From positions 1-31,473 of IMG/VR virus record IMGVR_UViG_3300031598_000014: 31,473 nt of DNA, one strand, 5' to 3'. Positions 9,126-31,473 of this stretch are shown here, piece by piece. The first letter of the stretch is position 1. Each line of letters starts with the position of its first letter. Made by a program: the position numbers and the translations under genes. Below the pieces are notes generated by a model. The model worked only from the letters and a program-made list of their open reading frames with translations. It searched no databases and was not told where the DNA came from. This DNA comes from a virus.

Positions 9126-9137
9126 AATGCGTTATTT

Positions 9138-11252: not shown

Positions 11253-11258
11253 TAAATA
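11251..11258 (+). promoter_or_regulatory. Possible late promoter variant (AATAAATA) before gp19
   Basis: AATAAATA overlaps the gp18 stop region and lies 25 bp before the tail tube ATG. One base differs from the consensus. The position matches where a gp19 late promoter would be expected. Confidence 0.45.
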
Positions 11259-11282
11259 GTTTAAAAGAACAGGAGAAAAACG

Positions 11283-11828
11283 ATGGCTTTTAATGTAAAT
11301 CAGTTCGCAGGGGCATTGAAGGGTGGGGGCGCAAGAAACTCCCTCTTTCAAGTGTTGATTACTAACCCTGTGAATTCAGTCGGTGATATTAATATCCCAT
11401 TCATGTGTAAGGCAGCGCAAATTCCCGCTGCTACTGTAAGTGCAATTGAACTCGACTACTTTGGTCGTAAGATTAAAATTGCAGGCAACAGGACTTATGC
11501 AGAATGGGCGCCTACTATCATCAATGACGAATCTTTTGATATAAGGAATGCGCTAGAAGAATGGAACGCTTCGATTAATACGTTTGAAGGTAATCTTCGA
11601 GGTAATGGTTCATCTTCACCGAGTGCATATAAATCATCTGCACAAATTCAACAGTTCAATCAATTGGGCGATGTTATTCGTGAATATACTTTTGTAGGTC
11701 TCTTTCCTTCAGAAGTTGGTACAATTGATTTGGCTTGGGATGCAGATACAATTGAAGAATTTCCAGTTACTTTCCAGTATGACTATTGGACAATCTCTGG
11801 TGGTTCTACAGGTAATGCTGGTGGGTAA
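11283..11828 (+). CDS. 19: Tail tube protein gp19
   Basis: A 181-residue subunit of the inner tail tube (T4 gp19 is 163). Family features: an N-terminal FAGALKGGGARNSLFQVLITNPV segment, the IPFMCKAAQIPAATV strand region and the closing VTFQYDYWTISGG strand. Subunits stack in hexameric rings through which DNA leaves the head. AGGAGA ribosome site 8-13 bp upstream. It follows the sheath gene as in T4. A second, more distant member of the same structural family lies at 17684-18217. Confidence 0.94.
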   Translation: MAFNVNQFAGALKGGGARNSLFQVLITNPVNSVGDINIPFMCKAAQIPAATVSAIELDYFGRKIKIAGNRTYAEWAPTIINDESFDIRNALEEWNASINTFEGNLRGNGSSSPSAYKSSAQIQQFNQLGDVIREYTFVGLFPSEVGTIDLAWDADTIEEFPVTFQYDYWTISGGSTGNAGG

Positions 11829-11840
11829 GTGATGTTGTAG

Positions 11841-11869
11841 GAGCGTCATAAATAACTATAACGCTCTTT
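11841..11869 (+). terminator. Hairpin between gp19 and gp20 enclosing a late-promoter-like octamer
   Basis: GAGCGT (11841-11846) can pair with ACGCTC (11861-11866), followed by only three Ts. The 14-base loop contains CATAAATA (11847-11854), one base off the late promoter consensus and 31 bp before the portal ATG. The hairpin may be a weak terminator for the gp19 mRNA, with the promoter element for gp20 within the loop sequence. The terminator function is weakly supported because the T-run is short. Confidence 0.4.
11847..11854 (+). promoter_or_regulatory. Late promoter variant (CATAAATA) before gp20
   Basis: CATAAATA differs only at the first base from TATAAATA and lies 31 bp upstream of the portal start codon, in the loop of the gp19-gp20 hairpin. 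Confidence 0.5.
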
Positions 11870-11885
11870 GCATAAAGGATATAAC

Positions 11886-13394: not shown

Positions 13395-13407
13395 AGCAAT
13401 AATTTAT

Positions 13408-13415
13408 TATAAATA
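13408..13415 (+). promoter_or_regulatory. T4-type late promoter (TATAAATA) before gp67
   Basis: Exact octamer 31 bp before the gp67-like ATG, in the 44-bp gap after the portal gene. It would drive the prohead core and protease genes. Confidence 0.8.
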
Positions 13416-13438
13416 ATGATGAATAAGGAGCAGTAATA

Positions 13439-13621
13439 ATGGCAGAATATACTACTAAAGATGCAGTGGACTTTGTTATGCAGAAAGATACAGCCGGCTT
13501 TAAAAACGCTGTTAATAGTATATTAAAGGATAAGATGTCTGATGCTATGGAAATAAAAAAAGTGGAAGTTTCCAATAATTTTATGGATACCGAAGAGGGG
13601 AAACCTGATGAAAACGTTTAG
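13439..13621 (+). CDS. 67: Prohead core protein gp67-like
   Basis: A 60-residue protein right after the portal, where T4 has gp67 (80 residues). The pattern TKDAVDFVMQKDTAGFKNAVNSILKDKMSDAMEIKKVEVSNNFM resembles the gp67/head-core family of marine T4-like phages, which helps form the scaffold core and is cleaved by gp21 on maturation. The ribosome site AAGGAG lies 8 bp upstream. It overlaps the next gene by 14 bp. The call rests on position plus pattern; the protein is too short for certainty. Confidence 0.75.
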   Translation: MAEYTTKDAVDFVMQKDTAGFKNAVNSILKDKMSDAMEIKKVEVSNNFMDTEEGKPDENV

Positions 13622-13889
13622 AGATTTTTTCAAATCTAATATAATTGTTGAAGAACTTTCTGAAGATGTGTTTGCTGATTTAGAAAAGATTGTCAAAACT
13701 AAATCTATGAGTAAAGTAAAGTTTGCTAATGGAAAAAGTTTAGAAGTTGATCTATTTACAGCGAGCGCATTCGTCAATATGTTTAAGAAAGTTAATAAGC
13801 AGAATGCAGTAAGAGGTAAGGCCCATATTGATAAATCTCCAGAGAATTTCATGAAAATGATGGACTTAGCTTTTGGAGGTAAGAAATAA
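13608..13889 (+). CDS. Small protein in the gp68 position, probable prohead core
   Basis: A 93-residue basic protein with a strong GAGGGGA ribosome site inside the end of the gp67 gene. It has an amphipathic N-terminus (TFRDFFKSNIIVEELSEDVFADLEKIV) and a compact C-terminal half (NGKSLEVDLFTASAFVNMFKKVNKQN). It sits where T4 places gp68, another prohead core protein, so a role in the core is likely. I cannot confirm gp68 homology by sequence. Its stop overlaps the start of the next gene (TAATG). Confidence 0.7.
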   Translation: MKTFRDFFKSNIIVEELSEDVFADLEKIVKTKSMSKVKFANGKSLEVDLFTASAFVNMFKKVNKQNAVRGKAHIDKSPENFMKMMDLAFGGKK

Positions 13890-14158
13890 TGGCATTAAAA
13901 CTCAAAGGCGCACAAGTAGCAGCACCAACGTCAGTCGCCACTGCTAATAACATTTCATCTTCTACAGTAGTTCTAGTACAGAATGTAGGTACTACTTCTA
14001 GATTAGTCACAGTAGTAGACAATGCAGTTAGTGCAGCAACAGTTGGTTCATTCAATATTCCCCCAAACGGAAATGTTCGATTAGAAAAGACTTCTACGGA
14101 TGAAATCTTTGCGGCGAATGCTGAAGTTAAGTTAACGCCTATTGCTCATTCAACCTAA
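13889..14158 (+). CDS. Small conserved protein, possible virion component
   Basis: An 89-residue protein rich in Ala, Val, Thr and Ser, with an alternating polar/nonpolar pattern that predicts beta strands (SSTVVLVQNVGTTSRLVTVV, then a GSFNIPPNGNVRLEK turn). Similar short beta proteins occur near gp21 in marine T4-like phages as hypothetical or structural proteins. Placement between head-core genes under a late promoter suggests a capsid-associated or decoration-like part. No catalytic motif is seen. Start ATG overlaps the upstream stop by one base. Function unknown. Confidence 0.7.
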   Translation: MALKLKGAQVAAPTSVATANNISSSTVVLVQNVGTTSRLVTVVDNAVSAATVGSFNIPPNGNVRLEKTSTDEIFAANAEVKLTPIAHST

Positions 14159-14168
14159 GGAAAAGTAA

Positions 14169-14819
14169 ATGAAGCTTATATGCGAAGTCACAGAAGACGT
14201 TCAATATCTCTTTGAAGAAAAGAAAGATGGAGCAAAGAATTACTTCATCGAAGGCATCTTCATGCAAGGGGATATTAAAAACAGGAATGGTCGTGTATAT
14301 CCTTCAGAAGTTCTAGCACGAGAATCTAAACGATATACAAAAGAGTATATCAACAAAAAACGAGCATACGGAGAACTTGGTCATCCTCAAGGCCCTACTA
14401 TCAATTTAGAAAGAGTTTCACATCTAATCACAGAATTGAAACAGGATGGTTCTAATTTTATTGGTAAAGCCAAGATCATGTGCGAAACTCCATATGGTAA
14501 AATCGTAAAGAGTTTGATGGACGAAGGCGCTCAATTGGGTGTTAGTTCTAGAGGTATGGGTTCTCTTAAAGAGAAGGGTGGAAAGTCTGAAGTCCAAAAC
14601 GATTTCTATCTTGCCACTGCTGCCGATATTGTGGCTGATCCTTCTGCACCAGGCGCATTTGTTTCTGGTATCATGGAAGGTAAAGAGTGGATATGGGATA
14701 ATGGTATTATTAAAGAGTCTGATATTGCTGCTTATGCACAGACTGTTTCAAAAGCCTCTAAGAAAAATTTAGAGACTGCGAAGTTAAAAGTATTTGAGAA
14801 CTTCCTCTCAAAATTGTAA
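14169..14819 (+). CDS. 21: Prohead core maturation protease gp21
   Basis: A 216-residue serine protease (T4 gp21 is 212). It is part of the prohead core and, once activated, cuts the scaffold and capsid proteins after Glu at sites like (L/I)xE. Visible family motifs: GDIKNRNGRVYP (34-45), the catalytic His in GELGHP (H72), and the catalytic Ser in GVSSRGMG (S126 or S127). An Asp in the ATAADIVADPSAPGAF region (150-164) may serve the active site. AAGGAAAAG precedes the start. The gene lies between core proteins and scaffold as in T4. Confidence 0.94.
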   Translation: MKLICEVTEDVQYLFEEKKDGAKNYFIEGIFMQGDIKNRNGRVYPSEVLARESKRYTKEYINKKRAYGELGHPQGPTINLERVSHLITELKQDGSNFIGKAKIMCETPYGKIVKSLMDEGAQLGVSSRGMGSLKEKGGKSEVQNDFYLATAADIVADPSAPGAFVSGIMEGKEWIWDNGIIKESDIAAYAQTVSKASKKNLETAKLKVFENFLSKL

Positions 14820-14822
14820 AAT

Positions 14823-14830
14823 TATAAATA
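14823..14830 (+). promoter_or_regulatory. T4-type late promoter (TATAAATA) before gp22
   Basis: Exact octamer just after the gp21 stop and 43 bp before the chosen gp22 start. Its position argues against the upstream ATG at 14837, which would lie only 7 bp after the octamer, near the expected transcript start. Confidence 0.8.
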
Positions 14831-14872
14831 TGTTATATGAATAAAGATATAAATTTATCAAGGAGTGTTCTA

Positions 14873-16033
14873 ATGTCAGACCAAGAACTAGAAATGCAAG
14901 CCGAGGCTGACGAAATCCTCGATGGGGAAGTAATCACCACGGACGAAAGTGACAGTGGTCTCCAAGAGAAAGCCGCCGTCAAAAAAGAAAATAAATCTAA
15001 AGTTAAAGCAGAAAACGGTGATCACGAAGAAGATGACGATTCTGATGATGTTGAAGACGATTCTGATGACGAAGAAGAAGCAGAAGAGTCTAAGAAAAAT
15101 GTCAAAGAAGCAGTCGCTTTGCCTAAGACTAAAACTGCAATGATTAATGCTATGCTTGGTGCCATGAAGGGCATGAAGAAAGATGACATTGCTTCTAATT
15201 GGGGCAAAATCAACGCCGCTTTCGGTGCTGATGATGAAGAAGATGACGATGCTGAAGACGAAAAAGAAGAGTCTAAAAAGCATGTTAAAGAAGTTAAGAA
15301 AGTTACCAAAGAAGACATCGACGTTAGTGATGACGTTAAAGCCCTCTTCGGTGATGAAGACCTTACTGAGGAATTCAAAACTTCTGCGACGACTATCTTT
15401 GAAGCCGCTGTTGTATCTAAGATCAACGAAGTACTTGAGACCGTATGTATTGATCTTGATGTAGAAGTAGAAGCAGAAAAAGAAGTTATGGCTGAAGAAA
15501 TTTCTACGCGCCTAGATGATTATCTAGAGTATGTTGTGGAAGAGTGGACCAAAGATAACGAACTTGCCGTTCAGCAAGGAATTCGTAGTGAAATTACAGA
15601 GAATTTCATGCAGGGTCTGCGCCAGCTATTTACTGAAAACTATATCGATATTCCAGAAGAAAAAACTGATCTAGTTGACGAACTTGCCAGTAAAGTGCAA
15701 GAGCTAGAAACTTCAGTTAATGAAGAAATGGAAAAGAACATTTCGTTAAGTAAAGGCCTTAATGAAATGAAGAAGCATAAGATTCTCAAAAACGTAAGCG
15801 AGGGTCTTTCTGAAACTCAGACAGAAAAATTGCGTTCGTTGTCTGATGGTATTGAATTTATAGACGATGAAGACTATAAAGAAAAGCTTGATACAGTTAA
15901 AGAAAACTACTTCCCTTCGGAAGAAGTTATAGAGACTGGCGATGAAGAGCCTCTAGTAATTGAAGATGATAAACCCGCAGATGGCTCTATGTCGGCATAT
16001 ACTAATGCCATTTCAAGAAGCATCAAAAAGTAA
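14873..16033 (+). CDS. 22: Prohead scaffold (core) protein gp22
   Basis: A 386-residue, strongly charged and helical protein between the protease and the capsid gene, as in T4 (gp22, 269 residues). The N-terminal third has long Asp/Glu tracts broken by Lys-rich stretches, with two similar EE(S)KK.VKE segments; the rest is coiled-coil-like (e.g. VDELASKVQELETSVNEEME). It fills the prohead as a scaffold and is destroyed by gp21; several L/I-x-E candidate cut sites are present. I chose ATG 14873 because AGGAGTG lies 5 bp before it. An in-frame ATG at 14837 lacks a good ribosome site. It is longer than the T4 protein, mostly from the acidic insert. Confidence 0.9.
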   Translation: MSDQELEMQAEADEILDGEVITTDESDSGLQEKAAVKKENKSKVKAENGDHEEDDDSDDVEDDSDDEEEAEESKKNVKEAVALPKTKTAMINAMLGAMKGMKKDDIASNWGKINAAFGADDEEDDDAEDEKEESKKHVKEVKKVTKEDIDVSDDVKALFGDEDLTEEFKTSATTIFEAAVVSKINEVLETVCIDLDVEVEAEKEVMAEEISTRLDDYLEYVVEEWTKDNELAVQQGIRSEITENFMQGLRQLFTENYIDIPEEKTDLVDELASKVQELETSVNEEMEKNISLSKGLNEMKKHKILKNVSEGLSETQTEKLRSLSDGIEFIDDEDYKEKLDTVKENYFPSEEVIETGDEEPLVIEDDKPADGSMSAYTNAISRSIKK

Positions 16034-16038
16034 AAAAG

Positions 16039-16046
16039 TATAAATA
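16039..16046 (+). promoter_or_regulatory. T4-type late promoter (TATAAATA) before gp23
   Basis: Exact octamer 49 bp before the major capsid ATG, upstream of a very strong AAGGAGAG ribosome site (16080-16087). Confidence 0.82.
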
Positions 16047-16094
16047 ATAAACATAATGAATAATGAAAAAAATTTCTAAAAGGAGAGAAATCTA

Positions 16095-17450
16095 ATGTAT
16101 AATCTCGATGAACTTCAACAGAAGTGGCAGCCCGTACTTGAGCATCCCGATCTCCCCGAAATCAAAGATGCCCATAAACGAGCCAGTGTCGCCACGCTCT
16201 TAGAAAACCAAGAAATTGCAGCCCGCGAACAAGCTGGGCAGCAAGTTGTTAATCCCACGCTGTTAGGCGAAGCCGCGCCCGTTAATGCGACGGGTTCTGG
16301 TGTTGATACGTTTGATCCAGTTCTTATTAGTCTGGTTCGCCGTTCGATGCCTAATCTTATCGCGTATGATGTTGCTGGTGTTCAGCCCATGACGGGCCCC
16401 ACCGGTCTTATCTTTGCGATGCGCTCTCGCTATACCGGTCAAGCTGGAACGGAAGCTTTGTTTAACGAAGCTAATACTTCGTTCTCGTCTAGTGCGGCTG
16501 GTAATACGGCATCTCGCGCGACTGCGAACGGTGCTTCTGGTACGGTTCAAGCTGGTACGGATCCTGCTGATCGTGCGATCAACGGAACTGGTTATTCGGT
16601 TGCGCCTGGTATGTCTACTGCTGCGGGCGAAGCCCTCGGTGACGCGACTACGAATGCTTGGCAAGAAATGGCTTTCTCGATTGAGAAAATTGCTGTTACG
16701 GCCGTCTCTCGCGCTCTTAAAGCAGAGTACACGATGGAACTTGCTCAGGATCTTAAAGCGATCCACGGACTCGACGCAGAGACCGAACTCAGCAACATTC
16801 TTTCGGCTGAAATTCTTGCTGAAATTAACCGCGAAGTAATTCGTACAATCAACTATTCGGCTTCTGCCGGTGCTCAGAACAACACGACCGCAGCCGGTAC
16901 GTTTGATCTTGACACTGACTCGAACGGTCGTTGGAGTGTTGAAAAGTTCAAGGGACTTCTGTTCCAGATTGAACGCGATGCGAATGAAATCGCTAAAGCA
17001 ACGCGCCGTGGTAAAGGCAATGTTATGCTGTGTTCTTCTGATGTAGCTTCCGCTCTTCAGATGGCTGGCGTACTTGACTATACTCCTGCGCTTTCTAACA
17101 ACCTCAATGTCGATGATTCTGGCAGCACGTTTGCTGGTATGCTTGGTGGACGAATCAAAGTTTACATCGATCCGTACTTCAGTGATGCAACAAATCAATA
17201 CTACACTCTGGGTTATAAGGGTGCTAGTTCTTTTGATGCTGGACTATTCTACTGCCCATACGTTCCTCTTCAGATGGTTCGTGCGGTAGGCGAGAATACG
17301 TTCCAACCTAAAATCGGCTTCAAGACACGTTACGGTATGGTATCTAATCCATTCGCGACGGGAGCCGCAGCCGGTACTGTCGGCGGTGGTCTTAATACCC
17401 AATCCGCTAACATCTACTACAGGATTGCTAAAGTCACGAACTTGATGTAA
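16095..17450 (+). CDS. 23: Major capsid protein gp23
   Basis: A 451-residue precursor of the HK97-fold capsid protein (T4 gp23 is 521). The signature FDPVLISLVRRSMPNLIAYDVAGVQPMTGPTGLIFAMRSRY (about 73-113) is the core motif used to type T4-like phages. The delta region (1-59) is removed by gp21: the LLGE/AAPV context puts the likely cut after E59, giving a ~392-residue mature protein. The C-terminal half has the conserved GNVMLCSSDVASAL and KVYIDPYF...YYTLGYKG motifs. Codons are the GC-richest of the virion block, fitting very high expression. Late promoter and strong ribosome site precede it, and a rho-independent terminator follows. Confidence 0.97.
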   Translation: MYNLDELQQKWQPVLEHPDLPEIKDAHKRASVATLLENQEIAAREQAGQQVVNPTLLGEAAPVNATGSGVDTFDPVLISLVRRSMPNLIAYDVAGVQPMTGPTGLIFAMRSRYTGQAGTEALFNEANTSFSSSAAGNTASRATANGASGTVQAGTDPADRAINGTGYSVAPGMSTAAGEALGDATTNAWQEMAFSIEKIAVTAVSRALKAEYTMELAQDLKAIHGLDAETELSNILSAEILAEINREVIRTINYSASAGAQNNTTAAGTFDLDTDSNGRWSVEKFKGLLFQIERDANEIAKATRRGKGNVMLCSSDVASALQMAGVLDYTPALSNNLNVDDSGSTFAGMLGGRIKVYIDPYFSDATNQYYTLGYKGASSFDAGLFYCPYVPLQMVRAVGENTFQPKIGFKTRYGMVSNPFATGAAAGTVGGGLNTQSANIYYRIAKVTNLM

Positions 17451-17476
17451 AAGCAATAAACTCGACTACAAAACTA

Positions 17477-17506
17477 GGGGGAGAGCGAAAGCTCTTCCCT
17501 TTTTTT
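17477..17506 (+). terminator. Rho-independent terminator after the capsid gene
   Basis: A 10-bp stem (17477-17486 with 17491-17500, including two G-T pairs) is closed by a GAAA tetraloop and followed by seven Ts ending at 17506. It lies 27 bp after the gp23 stop and is the clearest terminator in the window. A new late promoter starts 4 bp further on. Confidence 0.92.
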
Positions 17507-17509
17507 GCT

Positions 17510-17517
17510 TATAAATA
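17510..17517 (+). promoter_or_regulatory. T4-type late promoter (TATAAATA) after the capsid terminator
   Basis: Exact octamer directly behind the T-run of the terminator and 9 bp before the ATG of a 52-residue membrane protein. It restarts late transcription for that gene and the tail-tube-like gene. With so little space, the leader of this mRNA would be nearly absent if ATG 17526 is used. Confidence 0.78.
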
Positions 17518-21834: not shown

Positions 21835-22165
21835 TATGAAGTCACATATCGATAATATAGATGGTGAAATAGCGAAAGCTAATGATAGATATGAAGTTAT
21901 AGATAATACTAAACTTAACAATCTAGTACTAAGCAAAACAAGGCTTAGAGCTAAACAAAGCACCAACGGACATAGACATGCTGGCCAAGAAGAAATTTAT
22001 TTCTTTATTGGTGGTGCTGGTCGTATGGAACTAGATCACAAAGAATTTAAAGTTCAATCTGGTGATATTGTGTCAGTCGAAGATAATGTATTCCATCGAG
22101 TGCATAACGATGGAGATATCTTTTTAGATTTTATTTGCGTGTTTGATGGGAGTAGAAGTCATTGA
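21815..22165 (+). CDS. Small cupin-fold protein
   Basis: A ~116-residue single-domain cupin. Motif 1 is seen as NGHRHAGQEEIYFFIGGAG (H53, H55, E59/E60 as possible metal ligands) and motif 2 as SGDIVSVEDNVFHRVHN (H94). The metal and substrate cannot be read from this; stand-alone cupins range from sugar isomerases to dioxygenases and sensors. It starts inside the gp55 end (three ATGs in a row at 21815, 21818 and 21821; ATG 21836 is also possible) and overlaps gp47 by 4 bp, so it is part of the same operon. Function in the phage unknown. Confidence 0.78.
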   Translation: MMMNMHNMKSHIDNIDGEIAKANDRYEVIDNTKLNNLVLSKTRLRAKQSTNGHRHAGQEEIYFFIGGAGRMELDHKEFKVQSGDIVSVEDNVFHRVHNDGDIFLDFICVFDGSRSH

Positions 22166-23220
22166 AAATAGCATTGATAACAGATACCCATTGGGGTGTG
22201 AGGAACGACAATCAAGCTTTCCTCGATATGATCAATCGCTTTCACGGTGAAGTATTTTTTCCATATATTAAAGACCATGGTATAGACACTGTAATTCACC
22301 TTGGAGATATAGTTGATAGGAGAAAATATATCAGCTATACAACTCTAAGAGATATGAATAACAACTTCATAGATAAATGTCAAAGAGAGAATTTGGATCT
22401 TCACATTCTTATTGGCAATCATGACGTTACTTATAAAAATACCAATGACGTAAATTCTATGAATGAACTCTATAACGAAGACGTTCAAGGATATTCTGAA
22501 GCACAAGAAGTAGAGTTTGACGGCTGTAAGATTCTATTTCTGCCCTGGATCAATACACAGAATTACGATAAGTCTATGCGCATGATCAATGGCTCAACAT
22601 CACAAGTTGTTATGGGTCATCTTGAAGTGGCAGGCTGTCTTATGCAGCGAGGTATTACTAATGATCATGGATTAACGATAGATACGTTTAGAAACTTTGA
22701 TATCGTAATGTCTGGCCATTTTCACACACGCTCTATCACAAATAACATTCATTATCTTGGATGCCCTTATGAACTTACGTGGTCAGATTATCAAGACCCA
22801 AAAGGGTTTCATGTGTTTGATACAGACACAAGAGAACTTGAATTCATAGAAAATCCAATACGTATGTTCCATAAAGTGTTCTATGATGATTCAGATATGT
22901 CTGTTGAGGATATCAACAAAGTTAACTTTGACGATTATAGTGGTACACTTGTGAAAGTTATCAAGCAGACAACAGACAACCCATATTGGTTTGATTTGTA
23001 TATGGACAGACTATATAAGTCTAATCCAGTTAATGTACAGGTCGTAGATGATCATATGAATTTAGATTTGTCTGATGATAGCGATATTGTAAATGAAGCG
23101 GAAGATACTCTTACTATTTTAAGCAAATATATAGACAGTATGAAAACTTCCGTAGACAAAAAAAAGCTTGACTCTTTGATGAGAAGTCTGTATACTGAAG
23201 CATTGTACATCGAATCTTAA
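22162..23220 (+). CDS. 47: Recombination endonuclease subunit gp47 (Mre11/SbcD-like)
   Basis: A 352-residue calcineurin-like phosphoesterase (T4 gp47 is 339), the nuclease subunit partnering gp46 to resect DNA ends, degrade host DNA and prime recombination-dependent replication. Metal-binding motifs are in order: DTHWG (D8, H10), GDIVDRR (48-54), GNHD (85-88), MGHLE (151-155) and SGHFH (184-188). The start is a TTG at 22162 that overlaps the cupin TGA (TTGA); GGGAG lies about 9 bp upstream. Translation KIALITDTHWG directly after the TTG is the expected family N-terminus, so the non-ATG start is well supported. Confidence 0.94.
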   Translation: MKIALITDTHWGVRNDNQAFLDMINRFHGEVFFPYIKDHGIDTVIHLGDIVDRRKYISYTTLRDMNNNFIDKCQRENLDLHILIGNHDVTYKNTNDVNSMNELYNEDVQGYSEAQEVEFDGCKILFLPWINTQNYDKSMRMINGSTSQVVMGHLEVAGCLMQRGITNDHGLTIDTFRNFDIVMSGHFHTRSITNNIHYLGCPYELTWSDYQDPKGFHVFDTDTRELEFIENPIRMFHKVFYDDSDMSVEDINKVNFDDYSGTLVKVIKQTTDNPYWFDLYMDRLYKSNPVNVQVVDDHMNLDLSDDSDIVNEAEDTLTILSKYIDSMKTSVDKKKLDSLMRSLYTEALYIES

Positions 23221-23232
23221 CTAAGGTTATAT

Positions 23233-24948
23233 ATGATTTTATTTAAAACTGTGAGGTGGAAGAACTTCTTATCTACGGGCAATGCTTGGTCAGAAGTTCT
23301 TCTAGATAAATCTCCTAATACACTTATCGTCGGAGAGAATGGTTCTGGTAAAAGTACCGTTCTTGATGCGTTATGCTTTGTGTTATTCAATAGACCCTTC
23401 CGCAAAATCAATAGGCCACAATTAGTCAATACAATCAATGAAAAAGATTTATTGGTTGAAATTGAATTTAAGATTGGTAGTAGAGATTATTTAATCAGGC
23501 GCGGAGCGAAGCCTAACGTATTTGAAATATATGTAAATGATGTTCTACAAAATCAACCAGGCTCTACACGCGACTATCAAGACTTATTAGAACGTACCAT
23601 TCTCAAATTAAATTTCAGGTCATTCACGCAGATAGTAATACTTGGTTCAACATCGTTTGTTCCATTTATGCAACTTACGGCTGCTACACGCCGAGAAGTA
23701 ATTGAAGACCTGTTGGACATTCAGATATTCAGCAATATGAATCTATTACTTAAAGATAGGGTGTCAGTAAATAAATCAGAAATTAACGACTCTGAATATG
23801 TTGTAAAATTGCTTAATGAGAAAATAAGCATTCAAAGAGAATATCTAGGTAAAATGAAGGCTAAGAATGACAATTATGTAGCAGAATTTCAAAAGGATAT
23901 ATCAGATTTAAAAAATGATATCAGCGTACAATTAGAAAATAAACAAGCACAGGTGACGCTTATAGACGCTTTAAAAAGTGATCTAAAGGGTGAATCAAGT
24001 ATTCTAGCTAAGACAAGCAAGGTCGCAATTCTAATAGATAAATTAAAAATCAAGCATAAGAAAGCTCATAAACGTATTAGATTTTATGAAGATAATGACA
24101 ATTGTCCTACATGCGAACAGATAATTGATGTAGAAATTAAGACTAACAAGATACTCAAAACACATAAAATTATAGAAGATACAGAACATGCTGTTGATAC
24201 TCTAAAAAAAGAGCGTGACGACCTGACTATAAGAATAAACAAATTTGATGAAATGAATTCAAAAATAACTGCAATTCAAAAATCAATGATGACTATAGAT
24301 GCCAACATTGATTCTAATCAACATTCTATTACTAAGATACAGAATAACATAACCAAAATTTTAGAAACAAGTGATGATGATATCGAGGCCAAAGCAAAAC
24401 TTAAAGAGTTAAGGAATTCTTTATCTGAACAAGAAGAAGAACTAGAAGGTTTGGTGTTTGATAAAGAGTTGTTTAACACTGCTGGTTCTATGCTTAAAGA
24501 TGGTGGTATAAAGACTAAGATCATACGTCAGTACATACCAATCATGAATAAGCTAATCAATAAGTATCTGGCTGCTTTAGACTTCTTTATTAATTTTGAA
24601 CTTGATGAGGAGTTTAAAGAAGTTATTAAGTCTAGGTATAGAGATGTATTCTCGTATGCTTCATTCTCCGAAGGTGAAAAAATGCGTATAGATTTGGCCT
24701 TATTGTTTACATGGAGAGCGGTAGCAAAGCTTCGCAATTCAACTAATACTAATCTACTTATTCTAGATGAAGTTTTTGATGCTTCATTAGATACTAATGG
24801 CTGCGATGAATTTTTGAAATTGCTTCAGCAGACTGCAACAGATACTAATATATTTGTCATATCACATAAGGGTGATATTCTATATGATAAGTTCCACAGC
24901 CAAATTCGATTTGAGAAAACGAAAAACTTTAGCAGGATAGCAAAATAA
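23233..24948 (+). CDS. 46: Recombination endonuclease subunit gp46 (Rad50/SbcC-like)
   Basis: A 571-residue SMC/Rad50-type ATPase (T4 gp46 is 560) forming the gp46-gp47 end-processing complex. Walker A GENGSGKS is at 34-41, the zinc-hook CPTC at 291-294 (short coiled coils on both sides, about 180-290 and 300-415), the ABC signature FSEGEKMRIDLA at 478-489 and Walker B LLILDEVFD at 508-516. The final NIFVISHKGD holds the switch His. It starts 12 bp after gp47, and its stop overlaps the peptide deformylase ATG. Confidence 0.95.
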   Translation: MILFKTVRWKNFLSTGNAWSEVLLDKSPNTLIVGENGSGKSTVLDALCFVLFNRPFRKINRPQLVNTINEKDLLVEIEFKIGSRDYLIRRGAKPNVFEIYVNDVLQNQPGSTRDYQDLLERTILKLNFRSFTQIVILGSTSFVPFMQLTAATRREVIEDLLDIQIFSNMNLLLKDRVSVNKSEINDSEYVVKLLNEKISIQREYLGKMKAKNDNYVAEFQKDISDLKNDISVQLENKQAQVTLIDALKSDLKGESSILAKTSKVAILIDKLKIKHKKAHKRIRFYEDNDNCPTCEQIIDVEIKTNKILKTHKIIEDTEHAVDTLKKERDDLTIRINKFDEMNSKITAIQKSMMTIDANIDSNQHSITKIQNNITKILETSDDDIEAKAKLKELRNSLSEQEEELEGLVFDKELFNTAGSMLKDGGIKTKIIRQYIPIMNKLINKYLAALDFFINFELDEEFKEVIKSRYRDVFSYASFSEGEKMRIDLALLFTWRAVAKLRNSTNTNLLILDEVFDASLDTNGCDEFLKLLQQTATDTNIFVISHKGDILYDKFHSQIRFEKTKNFSRIAK

Positions 24949-25481
24949 TGAATCTAACACTTGAACTACTACCAATTCATCATCCGTTGTTGAAAGAACC
25001 AACAATGAAATTTGACTTTGATAATCCTCCTATTCCACCTGATCAATTATTCTCATTGATGGCAGAATTTATGATCAAAAATAAAGGTATGGGTTTGGCT
25101 GCTAATCAAGTTGGTATTCCATACAATGTATTTGTCATTGGGGATCCCACAAATGAAGATAGCGTCATTCCTGTGTTTAACCCTAACATTCTTTCTAGGT
25201 CTGGAGAAAAATATTATTCTGAAGAAGGTTGCTTGACATACCCCGGACTTTATGTTAAAATCAAAAGATATAATGTTATTAGAACTAGATATACTACTCA
25301 TGAGAATATAACAGATACGATTAAATTGTCTGGAATATCATCTAGAATATTTCAGCATGAGTATGACCATCTTAATGGAATATCATTTACTAAACAAGCG
25401 AATTCATATCACTTATCTAAAGCGCGTAAAGATTTGAAACAAGTAGAAAGAATGAGAAAACGAAATGCAAAAAAGGCTTAA
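24948..25481 (+). CDS. def: Peptide deformylase
   Basis: A 177-residue metallo-deformylase that removes the N-formyl group from new proteins. All three motifs are intact: GMGLAANQ (47-54), EGCLTYPG (93-100, metal ligand C95) and HEYDH (137-141). Like other viral deformylases it lacks much of the C-terminal helix of long bacterial forms, but keeps about 36 basic residues after the active site. Viral deformylases are well known from cyanophages and other marine phages and may help the host process phage or photosynthetic proteins; no photosystem gene is visible here. ATG overlaps the gp46 stop (TAATG). Confidence 0.93.
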   Translation: MNLTLELLPIHHPLLKEPTMKFDFDNPPIPPDQLFSLMAEFMIKNKGMGLAANQVGIPYNVFVIGDPTNEDSVIPVFNPNILSRSGEKYYSEEGCLTYPGLYVKIKRYNVIRTRYTTHENITDTIKLSGISSRIFQHEYDHLNGISFTKQANSYHLSKARKDLKQVERMRKRNAKKA

Positions 25482-25485
25482 ATGA

Positions 25486-27063
25486 ATGAATCAATATTAT
25501 GAACGCAACACTAAACTGATAGAGCATTCAATTAACAAATATTTTGAAGAAATATTATGGATGACAGATGAGGAGTTCGTTAATTGGTTTACCGAATTGC
25601 GCGAAACTGTTGTTGATATTTGGGATAATGATGGCATCCCGCCGAGAGTGGGATATAATAAAGAAGGCATAGAGAAACAGTTTAGGAGAATGTCTTCATT
25701 CAAGGTGCATGAATTTGAAACTGTCGATGTTCTTACAGGTGAAAAGGATGTTATACGCAATACGAGTGCAGTAGGTAACGCAGCGAACCAGTGGTTCCCT
25801 ACAATGATGAAAACTCGTATCAATTATAAAATGAATGATGATGGGTTGTCTATCTATGATCATTTTGCAGATCCAAAATTATTAGAAAAGACGTTGAAGT
25901 ATGCTCGCCGTCATTTTAAGAAAGATAGTTTCTATGCGTATTCAGAACCAATATTTAAAGGACAGACAGTTAAAGTAGGAACTATTGATTATAAGATTGA
26001 GAGTGGCGTAGATTTTATAAACTGGTTTGAGAAGACGGCTAGACAATATGATCAATATGACTATTGGTTGAAGCCTATCAAAGAAGACAAAAAAGGTTAC
26101 ACCGGCTATAACGACAAACTCAGGGATCGTTCTTGGTTAAGTATATCCCAGTTTAAATGTTCTTCAGTATTTACAGACTTAGAACAGATCCCAGAAGGAT
26201 GTAAAACTAATGTAGGAGATTATAATAATTTTGAAATTATGTTATTTGAGAAACGTCAAAGATTATTCCCTGTAGGGCTGAAAGCTTTTCGCGTATCGTG
26301 GTGTCAGTATGCGGTAAACTTCCCTCCACTTACTGCCAAATATCTGTATGAAAAATATACAGAACATTTTAAAACACAAGACATGATTAATATCTATGAC
26401 CCGTCAAGTGGTTGGGGTGGTAGAATATTAGGTGCTATGTCTATTAAAGATGATCGCAATATAAATTATGTTGGTACAGACCCTAACACTGACCATACGA
26501 TAGAGGATGGTCGTACAAAATATGAAGACTTAGCAGATACGTATAATGATGTAAGGAATTCTGGTGTTCTATTCACGCATAAAAATACATATGATATGTA
26601 TCAACTAGGTAGTGAAGTTATTCGTGAGAATGAAGATTTTCAGAAATACAAAGGTAAGTTAGACTTAGTATTCACCTCACCTCCTTACTTCGCTAAGGAA
26701 GCGTATTGTGAAGATGATACACAGTCTTATAAGAAATTTAACACATACGATGTATGGCGTGATGGTTTTCTCAGGCCTACATTAGAAACTTGTGTTGAGT
26801 ACCTACGTTCTGATAGATATCTTTTGTGGAATATAGCAGATGCAAAATTTGGTAAAGATATGCTACCCCTCGAAAAGGATAGCATTGATATTCTAGAATC
26901 GTTAGGTATGAAATTTGTAACTAAATTGAAAATGTCTCTGGCTCAAATGCCAGGAGGAAATAGAATAGACACAGATACAGGTCTACCAAAAGCAAAGAAC
27001 TTTTGCAAGGTCAATGATATTTGGCTGAAGTATGAACCCGTATATGTGTTCTATAAGGAGTGA
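25486..27063 (+). CDS. DNA methyltransferase-like protein with long N-terminal extension
   Basis: A 525-residue protein whose C-terminal half resembles an N4-cytosine/N6-adenine DNA methyltransferase. In order: a motif X-like FPPLTAKYLYEKY (279-291), SAM-binding motif I YDPSSGWGGR (304-313), an acidic GTDPNTDHTIEDG loop (330-342), catalytic motif IV TSPPYF (397-402), and a YLLWNIADAKF strand (about 439-449). The first ~270 residues match nothing I recognise; they are aromatic-rich and could recognise target DNA. It starts 5 bp after the deformylase and ends exactly next to the stop codon of the oppositely oriented VWA gene. The target base is not known. No restriction partner is nearby, so self-modification is more likely than restriction. 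Confidence 0.82.
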   Translation: MNQYYERNTKLIEHSINKYFEEILWMTDEEFVNWFTELRETVVDIWDNDGIPPRVGYNKEGIEKQFRRMSSFKVHEFETVDVLTGEKDVIRNTSAVGNAANQWFPTMMKTRINYKMNDDGLSIYDHFADPKLLEKTLKYARRHFKKDSFYAYSEPIFKGQTVKVGTIDYKIESGVDFINWFEKTARQYDQYDYWLKPIKEDKKGYTGYNDKLRDRSWLSISQFKCSSVFTDLEQIPEGCKTNVGDYNNFEIMLFEKRQRLFPVGLKAFRVSWCQYAVNFPPLTAKYLYEKYTEHFKTQDMINIYDPSSGWGGRILGAMSIKDDRNINYVGTDPNTDHTIEDGRTKYEDLADTYNDVRNSGVLFTHKNTYDMYQLGSEVIRENEDFQKYKGKLDLVFTSPPYFAKEAYCEDDTQSYKKFNTYDVWRDGFLRPTLETCVEYLRSDRYLLWNIADAKFGKDMLPLEKDSIDILESLGMKFVTKLKMSLAQMPGGNRIDTDTGLPKAKNFCKVNDIWLKYEPVYVFYKE

Positions 27064-29280
27064 TTAAGCAACCAAGTCAATGAACTTGGACAGCATCACT
27101 CGACTAGCTTTGCGATTTGAATTTGCTTTCTTGAAAGCGTTTCGTATCGCACCCTTCTTAGCGTCATCAGCGACTTGAATCGAAGTGTTCGCGGTATTGA
27201 GAGCCTTACCGCCGCGAACACCGAACCATTCGCTATAGCCAGAATTTGGGATAGATGAAAATTTATTCTTATTCATATATTTCCAGAAATCTTCAAATTC
27301 TTCCCAACCAGGTAGATAGTTGGCTGTTTCGCGACGGACTCCAATCTTATTGTTAGACAAGATACGAAAGCCAATCAAGTTTGACTGTGTGTTATCGCGA
27401 TACATTGTAAGCAAAGCGTTTGTATCGCCATAACCAGTGGTTCCTATATCATATGTTTTCTTGGTTTCACGGTCAATTAGAAACGATTTGGCACGAGCGG
27501 AACCAGGGCGGGCCGACATCGTACAATGTTCAGCGTGATAGTAGCCGATATTATTACTAGAGCCATCTGTTAAGAATACTGTATTAACAATATCAAGCTT
27601 ATTTTCTGCTTTGAATTTTTTGAACACTTTCATAGCGAACATAATCGTTTCGTTTAGAGGCGTTCCACCTAACTGGAAATCTCTATGGATCTGTTCGACT
27701 TTACACGCAACATAACGAGCATGATGGTTATATCGTTCATTCCAATATTGGCCAACAACCAAGAGTGCTTCCGACATTTTAATGAAATCCATACGAGTCA
27801 TTTTCTCATTGAACAATTCCATTATATGTAGGTTAGATGAATACGCTAAACAATCTTCAGTATTCATCTTGACGCTATTAAGACCGTCATCAACAGAAGC
27901 AATATTATAATACCCATTGGAACTACGATTTATAGTAGTGAATGAATAAACCCGAAATGGGATATTAATCTGACGACAGAACATCACCAGATTTAAGGTC
28001 TGATCTATTGTCGCTGCCATATTTTCTGCCATTGAACCAGAAAAGTCCAAATACATTAACAAGCCGTGGTTCTTACCTTCAGGAACGACAGATATCTTTT
28101 TGAAAATATCATCGCTATAACGATAGCTGTTCATTTTGATAGGATCAATAACACCAGTCTTGGAAGTAGTAGTGCGGGCATATTCAGAAGCCTGCTTTTT
28201 CATTTCAAATTCTTTGACTAGATAGTTGATAGTCGGTTTGTTATTTACCCGAAACTTTTTCAACAATTCAGATCCTATATCGCTAGAATTGTCTGCGAAT
28301 GAAAATTCTTTGGTATACTCTAAGACCTCTTTATAAGACCTGATAAATTTTTCAATTGGTCGAATATCGGTCTTATAATAATTACGAATTTTATCATCAT
28401 CATCTGCATATTTTTCTGAGATAGACTCTTTTAAAGCATCATCAGTTTTTGCTTTAGGATCAGAAGACCAATCATCTCCGCCTTCTTCACCCCATTCATT
28501 ACCATGGAGCAATTCTTCTAGTTCATCTTTCGCATCCATTTCGGCTTCTTCATCACCATCAGCGCGAGCTTCATTAATTTCATCTTTTAATTTGTTGATG
28601 GCATCTTCTAAATCCTCGGCAGACTCACCGTATTCATCATCCTCGCTTGAACCGTCAATCTGGTTATCATCTTCCGATTCATCATCAATGCAACTTTCAT
28701 CATCATCATCGGCAGCATCTTCTTCCTCCTTCGCTTTATTATAAAGCAAGGTAGCAAGCTTTTCAGCAGCATCAAATGTTTCTATTTCCGCAAGCTCATC
28801 AACCCAAAACTTTTCTTCTTCAGAGAAGGAGACTTCGGTTGAAGCGCCACATTTGAAATAAACGTTGAGCCGATCAATTAGATCATAGGCATTAATCGAC
28901 TGGCGACTTTTACCGAAGAAACCTTCATCAAGCATGTTATTATAAGACCGAATGAACGGGGCCCGTAAACCGGGGTAGCGCCTCTGGATTAATTTCTCAA
29001 TCCGAGCGTCTTCAACGATATTCAAATAAGAACGGTATCCTTCGGTCTTATTCTCGACTGCTTTTTTCCATTCTAATTCAGGAGTATATAAAGCGTGACC
29101 AACTTCATGACCAGTCAAATGGTCAATCGTATCGCTATCCATGGTCTTCCACGTAGGAAGGGTCAGAGTACGGCTTTCTAGATTGAAGGAAGCAGTCTCG
29201 ACATTTTTCTGAATGACCGTAATATCTTCCGTAGCTAGAAGCTTCGCGAGAATCTCTTTTTTGGTCGCGTTGGTATTCAT
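27064..29280 (-). CDS. HExxH peptidase-VWA fusion (CobT-like), MoxR partner
   Basis: A 738-residue protein on the opposite strand. The N-terminal domain has an HEVGH zinc-peptidase motif (58-62) followed by NIVEDARIEK (87-96), where E90 could be the third ligand. An acidic, low-complexity stretch spans about 182-300. The C-terminal half is a von Willebrand A domain with a full MIDAS: DFSGS (D412, S414, S416), GGTPL (T540) and TDGSS (D572). This architecture resembles CobT (cobaltochelatase) and a peptidase found in cyanophages. It pairs with the MoxR/CobS-type ATPase at 29719. ATG 29280 follows AAAGAGAA; the open frame upstream runs through the promoter, so the longer start at 29355 is unlikely. 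Cobalt chelation is not supported by other genes here; a protein-remodelling or protease role is inferred. Confidence 0.85.
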   Translation of the reverse strand: MNTNATKKEILAKLLATEDITVIQKNVETASFNLESRTLTLPTWKTMDSDTIDHLTGHEVGHALYTPELEWKKAVENKTEGYRSYLNIVEDARIEKLIQRRYPGLRAPFIRSYNNMLDEGFFGKSRQSINAYDLIDRLNVYFKCGASTEVSFSEEEKFWVDELAEIETFDAAEKLATLLYNKAKEEEDAADDDDESCIDDESEDDNQIDGSSEDDEYGESAEDLEDAINKLKDEINEARADGDEEAEMDAKDELEELLHGNEWGEEGGDDWSSDPKAKTDDALKESISEKYADDDDKIRNYYKTDIRPIEKFIRSYKEVLEYTKEFSFADNSSDIGSELLKKFRVNNKPTINYLVKEFEMKKQASEYARTTTSKTGVIDPIKMNSYRYSDDIFKKISVVPEGKNHGLLMYLDFSGSMAENMAATIDQTLNLVMFCRQINIPFRVYSFTTINRSSNGYYNIASVDDGLNSVKMNTEDCLAYSSNLHIMELFNEKMTRMDFIKMSEALLVVGQYWNERYNHHARYVACKVEQIHRDFQLGGTPLNETIMFAMKVFKKFKAENKLDIVNTVFLTDGSSNNIGYYHAEHCTMSARPGSARAKSFLIDRETKKTYDIGTTGYGDTNALLTMYRDNTQSNLIGFRILSNNKIGVRRETANYLPGWEEFEDFWKYMNKNKFSSIPNSGYSEWFGVRGGKALNTANTSIQVADDAKKGAIRNAFKKANSNRKASRVMLSKFIDLVA

Positions 29281-29297
29281 CGGTTCTCTTTCGTTAT

Positions 29298-29342
29298 TTC
29301 TCATCATATAAAGAGTATGGGCTATATCCTGGTCAAAGTCAA
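29298..29342 (-). promoter_or_regulatory. Promoter cassette copy B (drives the peptidase-VWA gene)
   Basis: Read on the minus strand: TTGACT (29342-29337), 17-bp spacer, CATACT (29319-29314), then a TTTATATGATGAGAA leader. The -35 matches the sigma-70 consensus at 5 of 6 and the -10 at 4 of 6. The block matches copy A on the plus strand at 42 of 45 positions, with the three mismatches together in the spacer. Confidence 0.72.
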
Positions 29343-29430
29343 GTAAATAATGCACAAAATATGAAAAAAAATAAAATAAATTAATTTCGGGTATCGTTAT
29401 ATATCAATGACTTAGCAGGTACGATTTTTC

Positions 29431-29475
29431 TTGACTTTGAGACGGATATAGCCCATACTCTTTATATGATGAGAA
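29431..29475 (+). promoter_or_regulatory. Promoter cassette copy A (drives the 51-residue gene)
   Basis: TTGACT (29431-29436), 17-bp spacer, CATACT (29454-29459), then TTTATATGATGAGAA. It is the outward-facing partner of copy B. Conservation continues about 16 bp past the -10, so the start site and leader are kept along with the core promoter. Confidence 0.72.
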
Positions 29476-29501
29476 CTAAAGAGAACGAAAAGGAAATGAA
29501 T

Positions 29502-29657
29502 ATGAAAATTAAAGCAGGCGACATGATTACCGAAAGCGGTATTTCTTATGTCGTAGAAAAAGATGAAGAGGGCACCCTGTGGGGCGTCAGCAATAACGCA
29601 GAATACGAAATCGAATTAAGTGAAGATTTTGTCCCTGATGCGCTATTTTCTTCTTGA
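29502..29657 (+). CDS. 51-residue protein of unknown function
   Basis: A 51-residue acidic protein (MKIKAGDMITESGISYVVEKDEEG...). It looks like a small beta barrel: strands around GDMITESGISYVVEK and EGTLWGVSNNAEYEIEL. ATG 29502 is chosen because AAGGAA lies 6 bp upstream; in-frame ATGs at 29466, 29469 and 29496 are in the leader. It has its own strong promoter (copy A) and sits between the divergent peptidase-VWA gene and the ATPase gene, so it may regulate or adapt that pair. The -35 of the next promoter overlaps its stop codon. Not recognised as a known family. Confidence 0.6.
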   Translation: MKIKAGDMITESGISYVVEKDEEGTLWGVSNNAEYEIELSEDFVPDALFSS

Positions 29658-29702
29658 CTTTGAGTCGAATCTATGCTAGGATACTTATATTGATGATGAG
29701 AG
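29654..29702 (+). promoter_or_regulatory. Promoter cassette copy C (drives the MoxR/CobS-like gene)
   Basis: TTGACTTTGAG (29654-29664) and ATACTTATAT...GATGATGAGAG match cassettes A and B at both ends, with a diverged centre. The -10 is either TAGGAT (29677-29682, 17-bp spacer) or GATACT (29680-29685, 20-bp spacer); the latter aligns with CATACT of A and B. TTGACT overlaps the stop codon of the 51-residue gene. Confidence 0.62.
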
Positions 29703-29718
29703 AAAGAGAGAGTTTAAT

Positions 29719-30852
29719 ATGAATGAGAAACACCTTCGCTTTATTGACATTGCCCGCGAGCGTTATGGTAATATCGTGACTCGAAAAGACATCAAGGAAA
29801 TATGCTCCAGTGAGGGGCTTCCCTTTCCTTGGTGGATTACTCGTACTGGTAGTCCATTTCGCGCAGCACACGGAAAGTTTCAGCTTTCGGAAATTCCTTC
29901 TGTTGATGTCAAATCTACTGTCAATCTTGAGCCTACAAAGCTGGTTAAGGATTTGAATATCGATACAATCGGGTTCACCGAAAATCTAGTCCCTAAGATC
30001 GATAATCTGTTTGTTCCCTTCGGTAATTTCAATATGGTTAAGAACGTTCTCAAATCTAATATGTTCTACCCAATTTTTGTCACTGGGCTGTCTGGAAATG
30101 GTAAAACGTTTTCTGTCGAACAGGCTTGTGCTTCACTTAGCCGAGATACGATCCGTGTCAATTTCACTGTTGAAACTGATGAGGATGACTTGATCGGTGG
30201 CTTTCGACTCGTTAACGGTGAGACCAAATTCTTTAAAGGTCCTGTTATTAAAGCCATGGAACTTGGAGCGGTTCTTCTGCTTGATGAGATTGATTTGGGC
30301 AACCCTGCCAAGATTATGTGCTTGCAGTCGATTTTAGAAGGTAGTGGTTATTTCATCAAGAAGACTGGTGAATATATCGAACCTGCTGAAGGCTTCACCG
30401 TCGTCGCTACTGCGAATACGAAGGGTAAAGGCTCTGAAGATGGTCGCTTCATTGGTACCAATGTTCTGAACGAAGCCTTTCTTGAACGGTTCCCGGTGAC
30501 GTGCGAACAGGAATACCCGCCTGTCGCAATCGAGAAAAAGATCCTCAACAAAGTGTTTGATAGCCTCGGCATCATCGATAAAGAGTTTATCAATAAATTA
30601 GTTGACTGGGCTGATATCATTCGGAAGACGTTCTATGACGGTGGTGTTGATGAAGTTATCTCCACGCGCCGGTTAGTTCATATTGCGAAGGCCTTCAGCA
30701 TCTTCAACGATCGGATGACATCCATCGATCTTTGCATCAACCGCTTTGATGAAGATACCAAGATGTCCTTTAAGGACTTATACACTAAAATTGATGCTGA
30801 TGTAGTTGTCTATGATGAAGAACATGGAGAAGAAAATGCTATTACTTTCTAA
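29719..30852 (+). CDS. MoxR/CobS-type AAA+ ATPase
   Basis: A 377-residue AAA+ ATPase of the MoxR/CobS type. Walker A GLSGNGKT (123-130), Walker B VLLLDE (185-190), sensor 1 VVATANTKGKG (228-238), the arginine-finger region LNEAFLERF (250-258, R257) and a sensor 2-like STRRLVHI near 314-321. The N-terminal ~100 residues (helical, with a short GLPFPWWITR motif) are a separate domain. CobS-like ATPases are known from cyanophages, and MoxR ATPases commonly act with VWA proteins to remodel or load metals into target complexes. The VWA partner is divergent, 440 bp away, under a matching promoter. A purine-rich GAGAGAG site precedes the ATG. The two genes look GC-richer than neighbouring early genes. 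Confidence 0.9.
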   Translation: MNEKHLRFIDIARERYGNIVTRKDIKEICSSEGLPFPWWITRTGSPFRAAHGKFQLSEIPSVDVKSTVNLEPTKLVKDLNIDTIGFTENLVPKIDNLFVPFGNFNMVKNVLKSNMFYPIFVTGLSGNGKTFSVEQACASLSRDTIRVNFTVETDEDDLIGGFRLVNGETKFFKGPVIKAMELGAVLLLDEIDLGNPAKIMCLQSILEGSGYFIKKTGEYIEPAEGFTVVATANTKGKGSEDGRFIGTNVLNEAFLERFPVTCEQEYPPVAIEKKILNKVFDSLGIIDKEFINKLVDWADIIRKTFYDGGVDEVISTRRLVHIAKAFSIFNDRMTSIDLCINRFDEDTKMSFKDLYTKIDADVVVYDEEHGEENAITF

Positions 30853-31138
30853 AAAAAATGTTGATGATCTGATGGTGATGATCAAGAAAATTGAATTGAT
30901 TTTGAATCCGAAGGTGATGGACACGCCGACGTTACCCAAAATCAAGGCCCCGATTACAAGTAGACCAACATGCAATCACATGACTAAAGATGGGGTGTGC
31001 GGTAAACCTGCACATAATACGGGACGTACGGTAAATCGTAAATGGAGAAAGGTAAAGGGTGTTGGTTATGTGTGCGGTAAGCATTATCGTTTTTTTAAGC
31101 CTAATACAAAAAAAGGTTCACAACTACCGTCCAATTGA
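30836..31138 (+). CDS. Small Cys/His protein, possible zinc binder
   Basis: A 100-residue basic protein. C46 and C55 (CNHMTKDGVC) with C80 and H83 (VCGKHY) could form one zinc site of the treble-clef/zinc-ribbon kind; H48 and H60 are other candidates. The N-terminal ~25 residues are an amphipathic helix. ATG 30836 is chosen for the GGAGAAG just upstream; in-frame ATGs at 30812, 30815 and 30824 are less likely. It overlaps the ATPase end by 17 bp, so the two are probably co-translated. Not recognised as a named family; nucleic-acid binding is a guess from the basic charge. Confidence 0.65.
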   Translation: MLLLSKKNVDDLMVMIKKIELILNPKVMDTPTLPKIKAPITSRPTCNHMTKDGVCGKPAHNTGRTVNRKWRKVKGVGYVCGKHYRFFKPNTKKGSQLPSN

Positions 31139-31186: not shown

Positions 31187-31473
31187 TTGGAAGTAACAGT
31201 AGATATCGAAACGCTACGAAAACGAAAACTTTTTGTAGCAACGCCCATGTACGGCGGCATGTGTAATGGCATGTATACTAAGTCCAGTGTTGATCTTGGT
31301 AAACTTTGCCAAGCATATGAGATAGAAGTTAAATTCTTTTATCTATTCAATGAGAGCCTCATCACCCGCGCTAGGAATTACTGTGTAGATGAATTCCTAC
31401 GGAGTGATTATTCGCATCTAATGTTTATTGATAGCGACATTGCGTTTGATCCAAATGATGTTCTATCGCTGTT
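31187..31473 (+). CDS. Glycosyltransferase-like protein, 3'-truncated by window edge
   Basis: A frame open to the right edge (95 complete codons). It starts at TTG 31187, with GGAG at 31175-31178; in-frame ATGs at 31247, 31259 and 31271 would remove the first strand, so the TTG is preferred. RKLFVATPMYGGMCNG (14-28) followed by ESLITRARNYCVDEFLRSDYSHLMFIDSDIAFDPNDVL is the GT-A-type pattern of small glycosyltransferases of T4-like phages; FIDSD (80-84) is the DxD-like metal/nucleotide-sugar site. It could modify phage DNA or host surface sugars. Catalytic and C-terminal parts are missing from the window. Confidence 0.72.
   Translation, partial: MEVTVDIETLRKRKLFVATPMYGGMCNGMYTKSSVDLGKLCQAYEIEVKFFYLFNESLITRARNYCVDEFLRSDYSHLMFIDSDIAFDPNDVLSL

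Follow-up and report, generated by a model that had tools for sequence, protein, structure and literature searches.

The window analysed here, a 31.5-kb IMG/VR virus record (IMGVR_UViG_3300031598_000014; 31,473 nt), is a fragment of a Kyanoviridae-like T4 phage. Near its right end lie a minus-strand gene encoding a protein with an N-terminal metallopeptidase-like domain, an acidic linker and a VWA domain, and a plus-strand gene encoding a MoxR/CobS-type AAA+ ATPase (Table 1). All four open reading frames (ORFs) listed in an initial annotation of this region are present, i.e. these two genes, a 51-residue ORF between them and a Cys/His ORF. In almost every ocean T4-like phage examined the two large genes occur together, commonly annotated as vitamin B12 genes. 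They form a near-obligate pair and appear to encode a two-component remodelling machine, in which the VWA partner has a predicted, intact peptidase domain. The pair, and its reading as a peptidase with a MoxR ATPase, is already published (PMC7824862); added here are the invariance of the motifs in unbiased sets, the absence of HExxH from cellular CobT, the classes of promoter and of neighbouring gene, and the failure to find CobN in the phage records searched.

Table 1 Features of the peptidase-VWA/ATPase region and its flanks, with positions in the window.
Feature	Position	Strand	Basis
gp47, gp46, peptide deformylase, DNA methyltransferase (context)	22162..27063	+	domain/family matches
Metallopeptidase-like/acidic linker/VWA protein, 738 amino acids (aa), PHROG 459 'peptidase'	27064..29280	-	E 1e-181; AlphaFold mean predicted local distance difference test score (pLDDT) 82
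VWA domain, residues about 330-738	27067..28293	-	metal ion-dependent adhesion site (MIDAS) residues; structural matches MDN1-MIDAS, NorD VWA
Acidic linker, residues 186-300, 44% Asp/Glu	28381..28725	-	composition
Zincin-like N-terminal domain, residues 1-198	28687..29280	-	model pLDDT 90.8; weak zincin structural matches
NIVEDARIE, residues 87-95	28996..29022	-	N87, E90, D91, R93 invariant in 76 sequences
HEVGH motif, residues 58-62	29095..29109	-	HExxH in 56/56 unique relatives
Putative promoter of peptidase-VWA gene, one arm of 64-nt inverted repeat, TTGACT-17-CATACT	29284..29347	-	repeat + promoter scan
Putative promoter of 51/53-aa ORF, other arm of inverted repeat	29426..29489	+	repeat + promoter scan
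Small ORF, 51-53 aa	29496..29657	+	91% identical in L120; none in other loci
Third copy of TTGACT promoter type, before ATPase, TCTTGACTTTGAG shared	29654..29682	+	repeat + promoter scan
MoxR/CobS-type AAA+ ATPase, 377 aa, PHROG 249	29719..30852	+	PHROG 249 E 3e-118; AAA_5 E 2e-17; CbbQ_C E 5e-6
Walker A GLSGNGKT	30085-30108	+	sequence
Walker B LLLDEID	30274-30294	+	sequence
Cys/His ORF, 100 aa from ATG 30836, overlaps ATPase stop	30836..31138	+	sequence
Glycosyltransferase-like gene (context), cut by window end	31187..31471	+	comes after ATPase in many relatives

The minus-strand ORF can be read from a GTG at 29355 (27064-29355), but this start, used in the initial annotation, is judged to be misplaced, because it precedes a promoter-like repeat and because the match to PHROG 459 begins at about ORF residue 29; the ATG at 29280 is the likely start. 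The other features ascribed to the protein stand: HEVGH, the acidic linker and a VWA domain with an intact MIDAS (DFSGS at 28033-28047; D412, S414, S416, T540 and D572). A Pfam search with the protein gave no match. These five MIDAS residues are invariant across 76 aligned sequences that share 30-56% identity with the window protein, as are H58, E59, H62, N87, E90, D91 and R93. Loci of one scan had been selected on HExxH, so their motif counts were left out as evidence and conservation was recounted on other loci. HExxH, N..ED.R and MIDAS DxSxS are kept in all 56 unique relatives chosen without those motifs (19/19 from loci picked by other patterns and 37/37 picked by the ATPase alone). An HExxH motif with a conserved downstream acidic ligand is the sequence signature of a zincin (gluzincin), with E90 (or D91) presumed to be the third zinc ligand. 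Occurrence is above chance, with the peptidase-VWA protein in 463 phage records and the ATPase or a relative in 776.

Comparison of peptidase profiles with the PDB by sequence gave nothing meaningful, and a structural fold search was therefore made. AlphaFold was run on the 76-sequence alignment and, because structural comparison of the whole model was filled with VWA matches, the N-domain (residues 1-198) was also folded alone. Its top Foldseek/VIA matches are all zincin metallopeptidases (selecase, jannalysin, abylysin, ArdC, IrrE/PprI and BlaR1); as their scores are weak, the main grounds for the predicted zincin fold are the motif and the fact that every top match is a zincin. In the model, HExxH lies on a helix after three strands and N..ED on a later long helix, which is the gluzincin order. 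Pfam searches with the N-domain gave scattered sub-threshold matches only, the zincin MPTase-PolyVal being the commonest. For the VWA model, the best structural matches are MDN1/Rea1-MIDAS (Z 16.8; 224 residues, 3.4 A) and the NorD VWA domain (Z 15.6; 258 residues, 4.4 A). Weak BFVD matches of the whole peptidase-VWA model include a DUF7192 protein, and in a Staphylococcus Kayvirus (L039 4704-6679) an AAA_5 ATPase is followed by a DUF7192 protein; these may be another ATPase-VWA-like pair.

Assignment of the plus-strand gene to the MoxR/CobS-type ATPases is confirmed by its Walker A and B motifs and its AAA_5 and CbbQ_C domains, and Walker, sensor and arginine positions are conserved across 140 unique ATPases. 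Its closest PDB sequence match is Midasin (Rea1/MDN1; E 9e-40). Both parts of a MoxR/VWA two-component system are thus found here, an AAA+ protein with intact Walker A/B and a nearby VWA partner with an intact MIDAS. Among the loci collected, the two genes lie within reach of each other at 164, and all of these except one (163/164) are tandem, peptidase then ATPase; the exception, L120, comes from another sample and has the inverted layout of the window. Cyanophage record counts, compared as totals and not record by record, are equal for both genes (Synechococcus phage 365/365, 'Cyanophage' 61/61, Prochlorococcus phage 24/24), and most single-gene loci stop at a contig edge. The module is not indispensable: from the common set, four marine cluster C cyanophages reportedly have just phoH, mazG and hsp20 (PMC10665884), so no cobS. 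Independent occurrence of the two genes, which the initial annotation had set against its own view of a dedicated ATPase-VWA pair with a peptidase-like domain, is not what was found: they are strongly linked.

The neighbours of the pair are replication and recombination genes. Kyanoviridae relatives carry it beside gp46/gp45, and much the same gene order surrounds it in Ochrobactrum phage vB_OspM_OC, HTVC008M, S-SM1 and P-SSM2 (filed under Kyanoviridae). In unrelated phages it lies near UvsX and a primase-helicase, near DNA ligase, primase and DnaE (DNA polymerase III alpha), near primase/helicase genes, or near RecT/YqaJ. Pseudoalteromonas phage XG4 (L036 3685-4884, 4896-5927) has the VWA domain and a HEVSH peptidase as two separate genes beside the ATPase, then genes reading as gp45, gp44, gp62 and regA; the XG4 ATPase itself is in two frames and the record is marked unverified. 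A block of T4-like structural genes (tail fibres, head closure, tail sheath, scaffold, gp21-type prohead protease, major head protein) makes up the left part of the window; the right part encodes UvsY, a UvsW-type helicase, gp55, gp47, gp46, peptide deformylase and a DNA methyltransferase, followed by the peptidase-VWA/ATPase module.

The 64-nt inverted repeat (86%) carries divergent sigma-70-like promoters, predicted to serve the peptidase-VWA gene and the small ORF. As the sigma-70 scan as a whole is at the level of shuffled sequence (61 found vs 59 expected, in AT-rich DNA), the promoter evidence rests on the repeated long copies. Inversion of the peptidase-VWA gene behind a duplicated divergent promoter is confined to the window and L120, and an assembly artefact is ruled out as its cause by the identical layout in L120. 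Recombination between promoter copies could have flipped the gene (window 29284-29347/29426-29489; L120 4252-4843). The element TCAATGACTTAGCAGGTACGATTTT is found at 29404-29428, directly upstream of a promoter, and twice in L120, in opposite orientations (about 4660-4690 and 4765-4792). These phages have a known late promoter, NATAAATA (PMC2984593). A late-promoter motif close to it, TATAAATA, has seven plus-strand copies in the window, all within 4693-17510 and none in the module region, and in relatives it lies upstream of 0/127 peptidase and 2/112 ATPase genes, which is about background and no enrichment. Neither a late promoter nor a place among structural genes, as would mark a virion maturation protease, was found for the module. 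Expression of both genes is probably early or middle, judging from the promoter sequences. Early-type promoters, lack of late-promoter enrichment and recombination/replication neighbours together argue against a role in virion maturation.

Cellular CobT is related to the phage protein but differs at the predicted active site. HExxH is found at the homologous place in 0/45 alphaproteobacterial CobT proteins, where a stretch of type RGxADAxALR takes its position; the downstream motif, where readable, is of E-x-A/V-R type (E-Q-A-R corresponds to NIVEDARIE), while in about 15 of the 45 it does not fit the search pattern, so that these proteins establish no more than the lack of HExxH. The single HExxH match in a cellular CobT (L248) was rejected, since it falls within the linker and away from the homologous position. 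Profile comparison links the T4-like N-domains to those of other viral CobT-like proteins (E 2.6e-16) and these in turn to cellular CobT (E 2e-7); as the direct step from T4-like to cellular proteins is not significant (E 0.003, probability 9%), homology is claimed through the intermediate viral group only. A Pseudovibrio genome has both forms: besides CobN and a canonical CobT, a separate contig encodes another CobT-like protein, which has HEAGH and NVVEDARIE. With the Pfam CobT model the canonical and the HEAGH form score 334 and 32.5 bits, respectively, both above the cut-off. On the contig of the HEAGH form (L221 3530-9653), this gene and a CobS-like gene alternate with RecT and YqaJ recombinase genes. 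Viral and cellular proteins are, by sequence, homologous in layout, and the T4-like branch keeps a complete peptidase motif; for this reason both the peptidase label and the statement that cobT was 'mistakenly annotated as a peptidase' (PMC8651126) are half right.

Several known systems share this architecture. Closest are the PHROG 459/249 pairs of cyanophages and pelagiphages (S-SM1, HTVC008M, P-SSM2; 'peptidase' plus 'CobS'), which are full-length homologues with shared motifs and a shared gp46-gp45 neighbourhood (about 30-36% identity for the peptidase-VWA protein and about 52-60% for the ATPase) but are tandem, rather than having the peptidase-VWA gene inverted behind a duplicated promoter. 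Viral 'CobT/CobS' proteins of SSU5-like phage-plasmids and of Rhizobium, Pseudomonas and Vibrio ICP2 phages have an N-domain of a homologous group, a linker, a VWA domain and an adjacent ATPase, again in a replication-gene neighbourhood. Several keep HExxH; they differ in that the motif is lost in nickie and BUCTxx99 and that the VWA part is closer to CobT. Aerobic cobaltochelatase CobS/CobT (9uka and others) has a like domain order but no HExxH, and works as a three-subunit enzyme with CobN. Midasin, which is both the top ATPase sequence match and the top VWA structural match, is a single giant eukaryotic chain acting on pre-ribosomes and is not known to have a peptidase domain. NorQ/NorD and CbbQ/CbbO likewise combine a MoxR ATPase with an N-domain/linker/VWA partner, and insert iron or reactivate Rubisco. 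NorD runs from an N-domain through a flexible linker to a VWA domain with a finger in the NorQ pore (PMC13036017); the portion of the NorD literature covered here mentions no peptidase motif, whereas the window protein has HEVGH. In jumbo phages of group 2.2, Iyer et al. 2021 (PMC7824862) described a MoxR ATPase paired with an N-terminal metallopeptidase fused to vWA, an architecture like that seen here; that pair was tied to virion assembly, whereas the promoter and synteny evidence presented here points elsewhere.

Taken together, we consider the pair to be a two-component MoxR AAA+/VWA remodelling machine whose VWA partner has an intact gluzincin-type peptidase domain that would cut clients, and place the probability of this explanation as a whole (remodelling, proteolysis, timing and client class) at about 0.6. 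By analogy with NorQD, the ATPase ring would hold the VWA domain in its pore, and the VWA-MIDAS head would be twisted against a bound client as ATP is hydrolysed (PMC13036017). The N-terminal domain, predicted from its invariant motifs to bind zinc and tethered by the flexible acidic linker, would then cut the loosened client. The likeliest client is a phage or host protein that acts in DNA replication, in recombination or in the switch to late transcription; the promoters and neighbours make such a client likelier than a capsid protein. The original proposal of a host target gains no preference from synteny, which fits a phage protein of replication, recombination or late transcription equally well. 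More tentatively, the pair may be an AAA+ protease of unrecognised layout, with the protease site off the ring on the tethered N-domain of the VWA cofactor, the CobT N-domain being its degenerate descendant or sister.

Several observations weigh against this explanation. Early/replication clustering is common in phages, and the evidence for the client class is moderate. Peptidase catalysis by the pair is a prediction from sequence motifs, and structural matches of the N-domain score low (best Z 6.0; best Foldseek E 0.12). HExxH has been lost in related siphovirus lineages (SEISK in Pseudomonas phage nickie, REVST in Stenotrophomonas BUCTxx99), so the scaffold can work there without catalysis. 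Four loci (L079, L106, L112, L116) had room, yet show no ATPase within 2-6 kb downstream of the peptidase-VWA gene; a MazG-like gene lies close behind that gene in each. The viral CobT-like proteins with SEISK and REVST in place of HExxH (L230 4983-7067, L231 4980-6965) are candidate pseudo-peptidases.

A metal-insertion or maturation chaperone acting without proteolysis, in which HExxH would handle metal or bind clients and the pair would activate a metalloenzyme, is unlikely, though the well-studied relatives NorQD and CobST do act in metal insertion and the absence of HExxH from cellular CobT and its loss in some phage lineages imply non-catalytic uses of the scaffold. In zincins the HExxH glutamate serves as general base and does not bind the metal. 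A catalytic site would be expected to show the strict invariance that H, E and H and N..ED.R have in the T4-like branch, and no metalloenzyme gene is regularly adjacent in the phage neighbourhoods examined. Somewhat less probable is a virion assembly or maturation factor, an ATPase-VWA chaperone for tail or head proteins whose peptidase would process structural proteins, a role proposed in print for the group 2.2 jumbo phages because Acidianus two-tailed virus needs a comparable MoxR-vWA system for its tails (PMC7824862). Against it stand the position of the module outside the structural block, the confinement of the seven plus-strand TATAAATA copies to 4693-17510, the background-level counts of this motif in relatives, and the gp21-type prohead protease that the window phage already has (Peptidase_S77, E 3e-32). 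The part of the cyanophage virion protein literature covered also names neither product, but this is a weak point.

It is very improbable that the pair is a cobaltochelatase helper, with phage CobS/CobT engaging host CobN and raising cobalamin, as proposed by Liu et al. 2021 (PMC8651126) and implied by older annotation, even though both proteins are distant homologues of CobS and CobT. CobN, whose presence the initial annotation had named as contrary to its rejection of a cobalamin pathway, was not found in any of 20 phage or phage-plasmid records (the window, a fragment, and 19 others), though hosts may encode it. A pair of this CobT-like/ATPase family is carried by E. coli phages and phage-plasmids, one listed with a K-12 host, and no CobN was found in an E. 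coli control genome. The window ATPase scores 84 bits against the CobS equivalog TIGR01650 (cut-off 558.55) and no match of the window protein to the CobT equivalog TIGR01651 (cut-off 759 bits) was reported. Rejection of a cobalamin pathway is also upheld by the HExxH motif, present in T4-like members but not in cellular CobT, and by the two separate forms in Pseudovibrio.

The two small ORFs had been proposed as further parts of the machine, a suggestion that comparison with other loci does not bear out. The 51/53-aa ORF is probably a real gene, given its identity to the L120 copy, but it is lineage-local, and in L120 several genes separate it from the ATPase. No relative of the Cys/His ORF was found in about 190 loci, and in L124, where the ATPase is 93% identical, a glycosyltransferase-like gene directly follows the ATPase. 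Both ORFs are neighbours outside the conserved module. The methyltransferase ORF (25486-27063) is large, with an N6/N4 methyltransferase (MTase) domain at its C-terminal end; it matches Staphylococcus, Bacteroides and Vibrio phages over the MTase part only, and full-length relatives lie near the module in L120, L014, L047 and L072. Searches with defence-system profiles (PADLOC) gave no match. At the DNA level, likeness of the window to named phages is small and limited to Synechococcus phage S-SRM01 and one pelagiphage.

Most T4-like cyanophages have cobS and its partner among their core genes; cobS serves as an ecological marker and is interpreted as an auxiliary metabolic gene for vitamin B12. 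Should the pair be an ATP-driven metalloprotease/remodeller, the B12 metabolic reading would be wrong for very many phage genomes, and the conflicting published proposals, virion assembly and CobN hijack, would be separable by simple mutants. Such a pair would also point to an evolutionary source for the N-domain of CobT; on the more tentative reading above, the motor of a B12 enzyme and a phage protease would share one ancestor.

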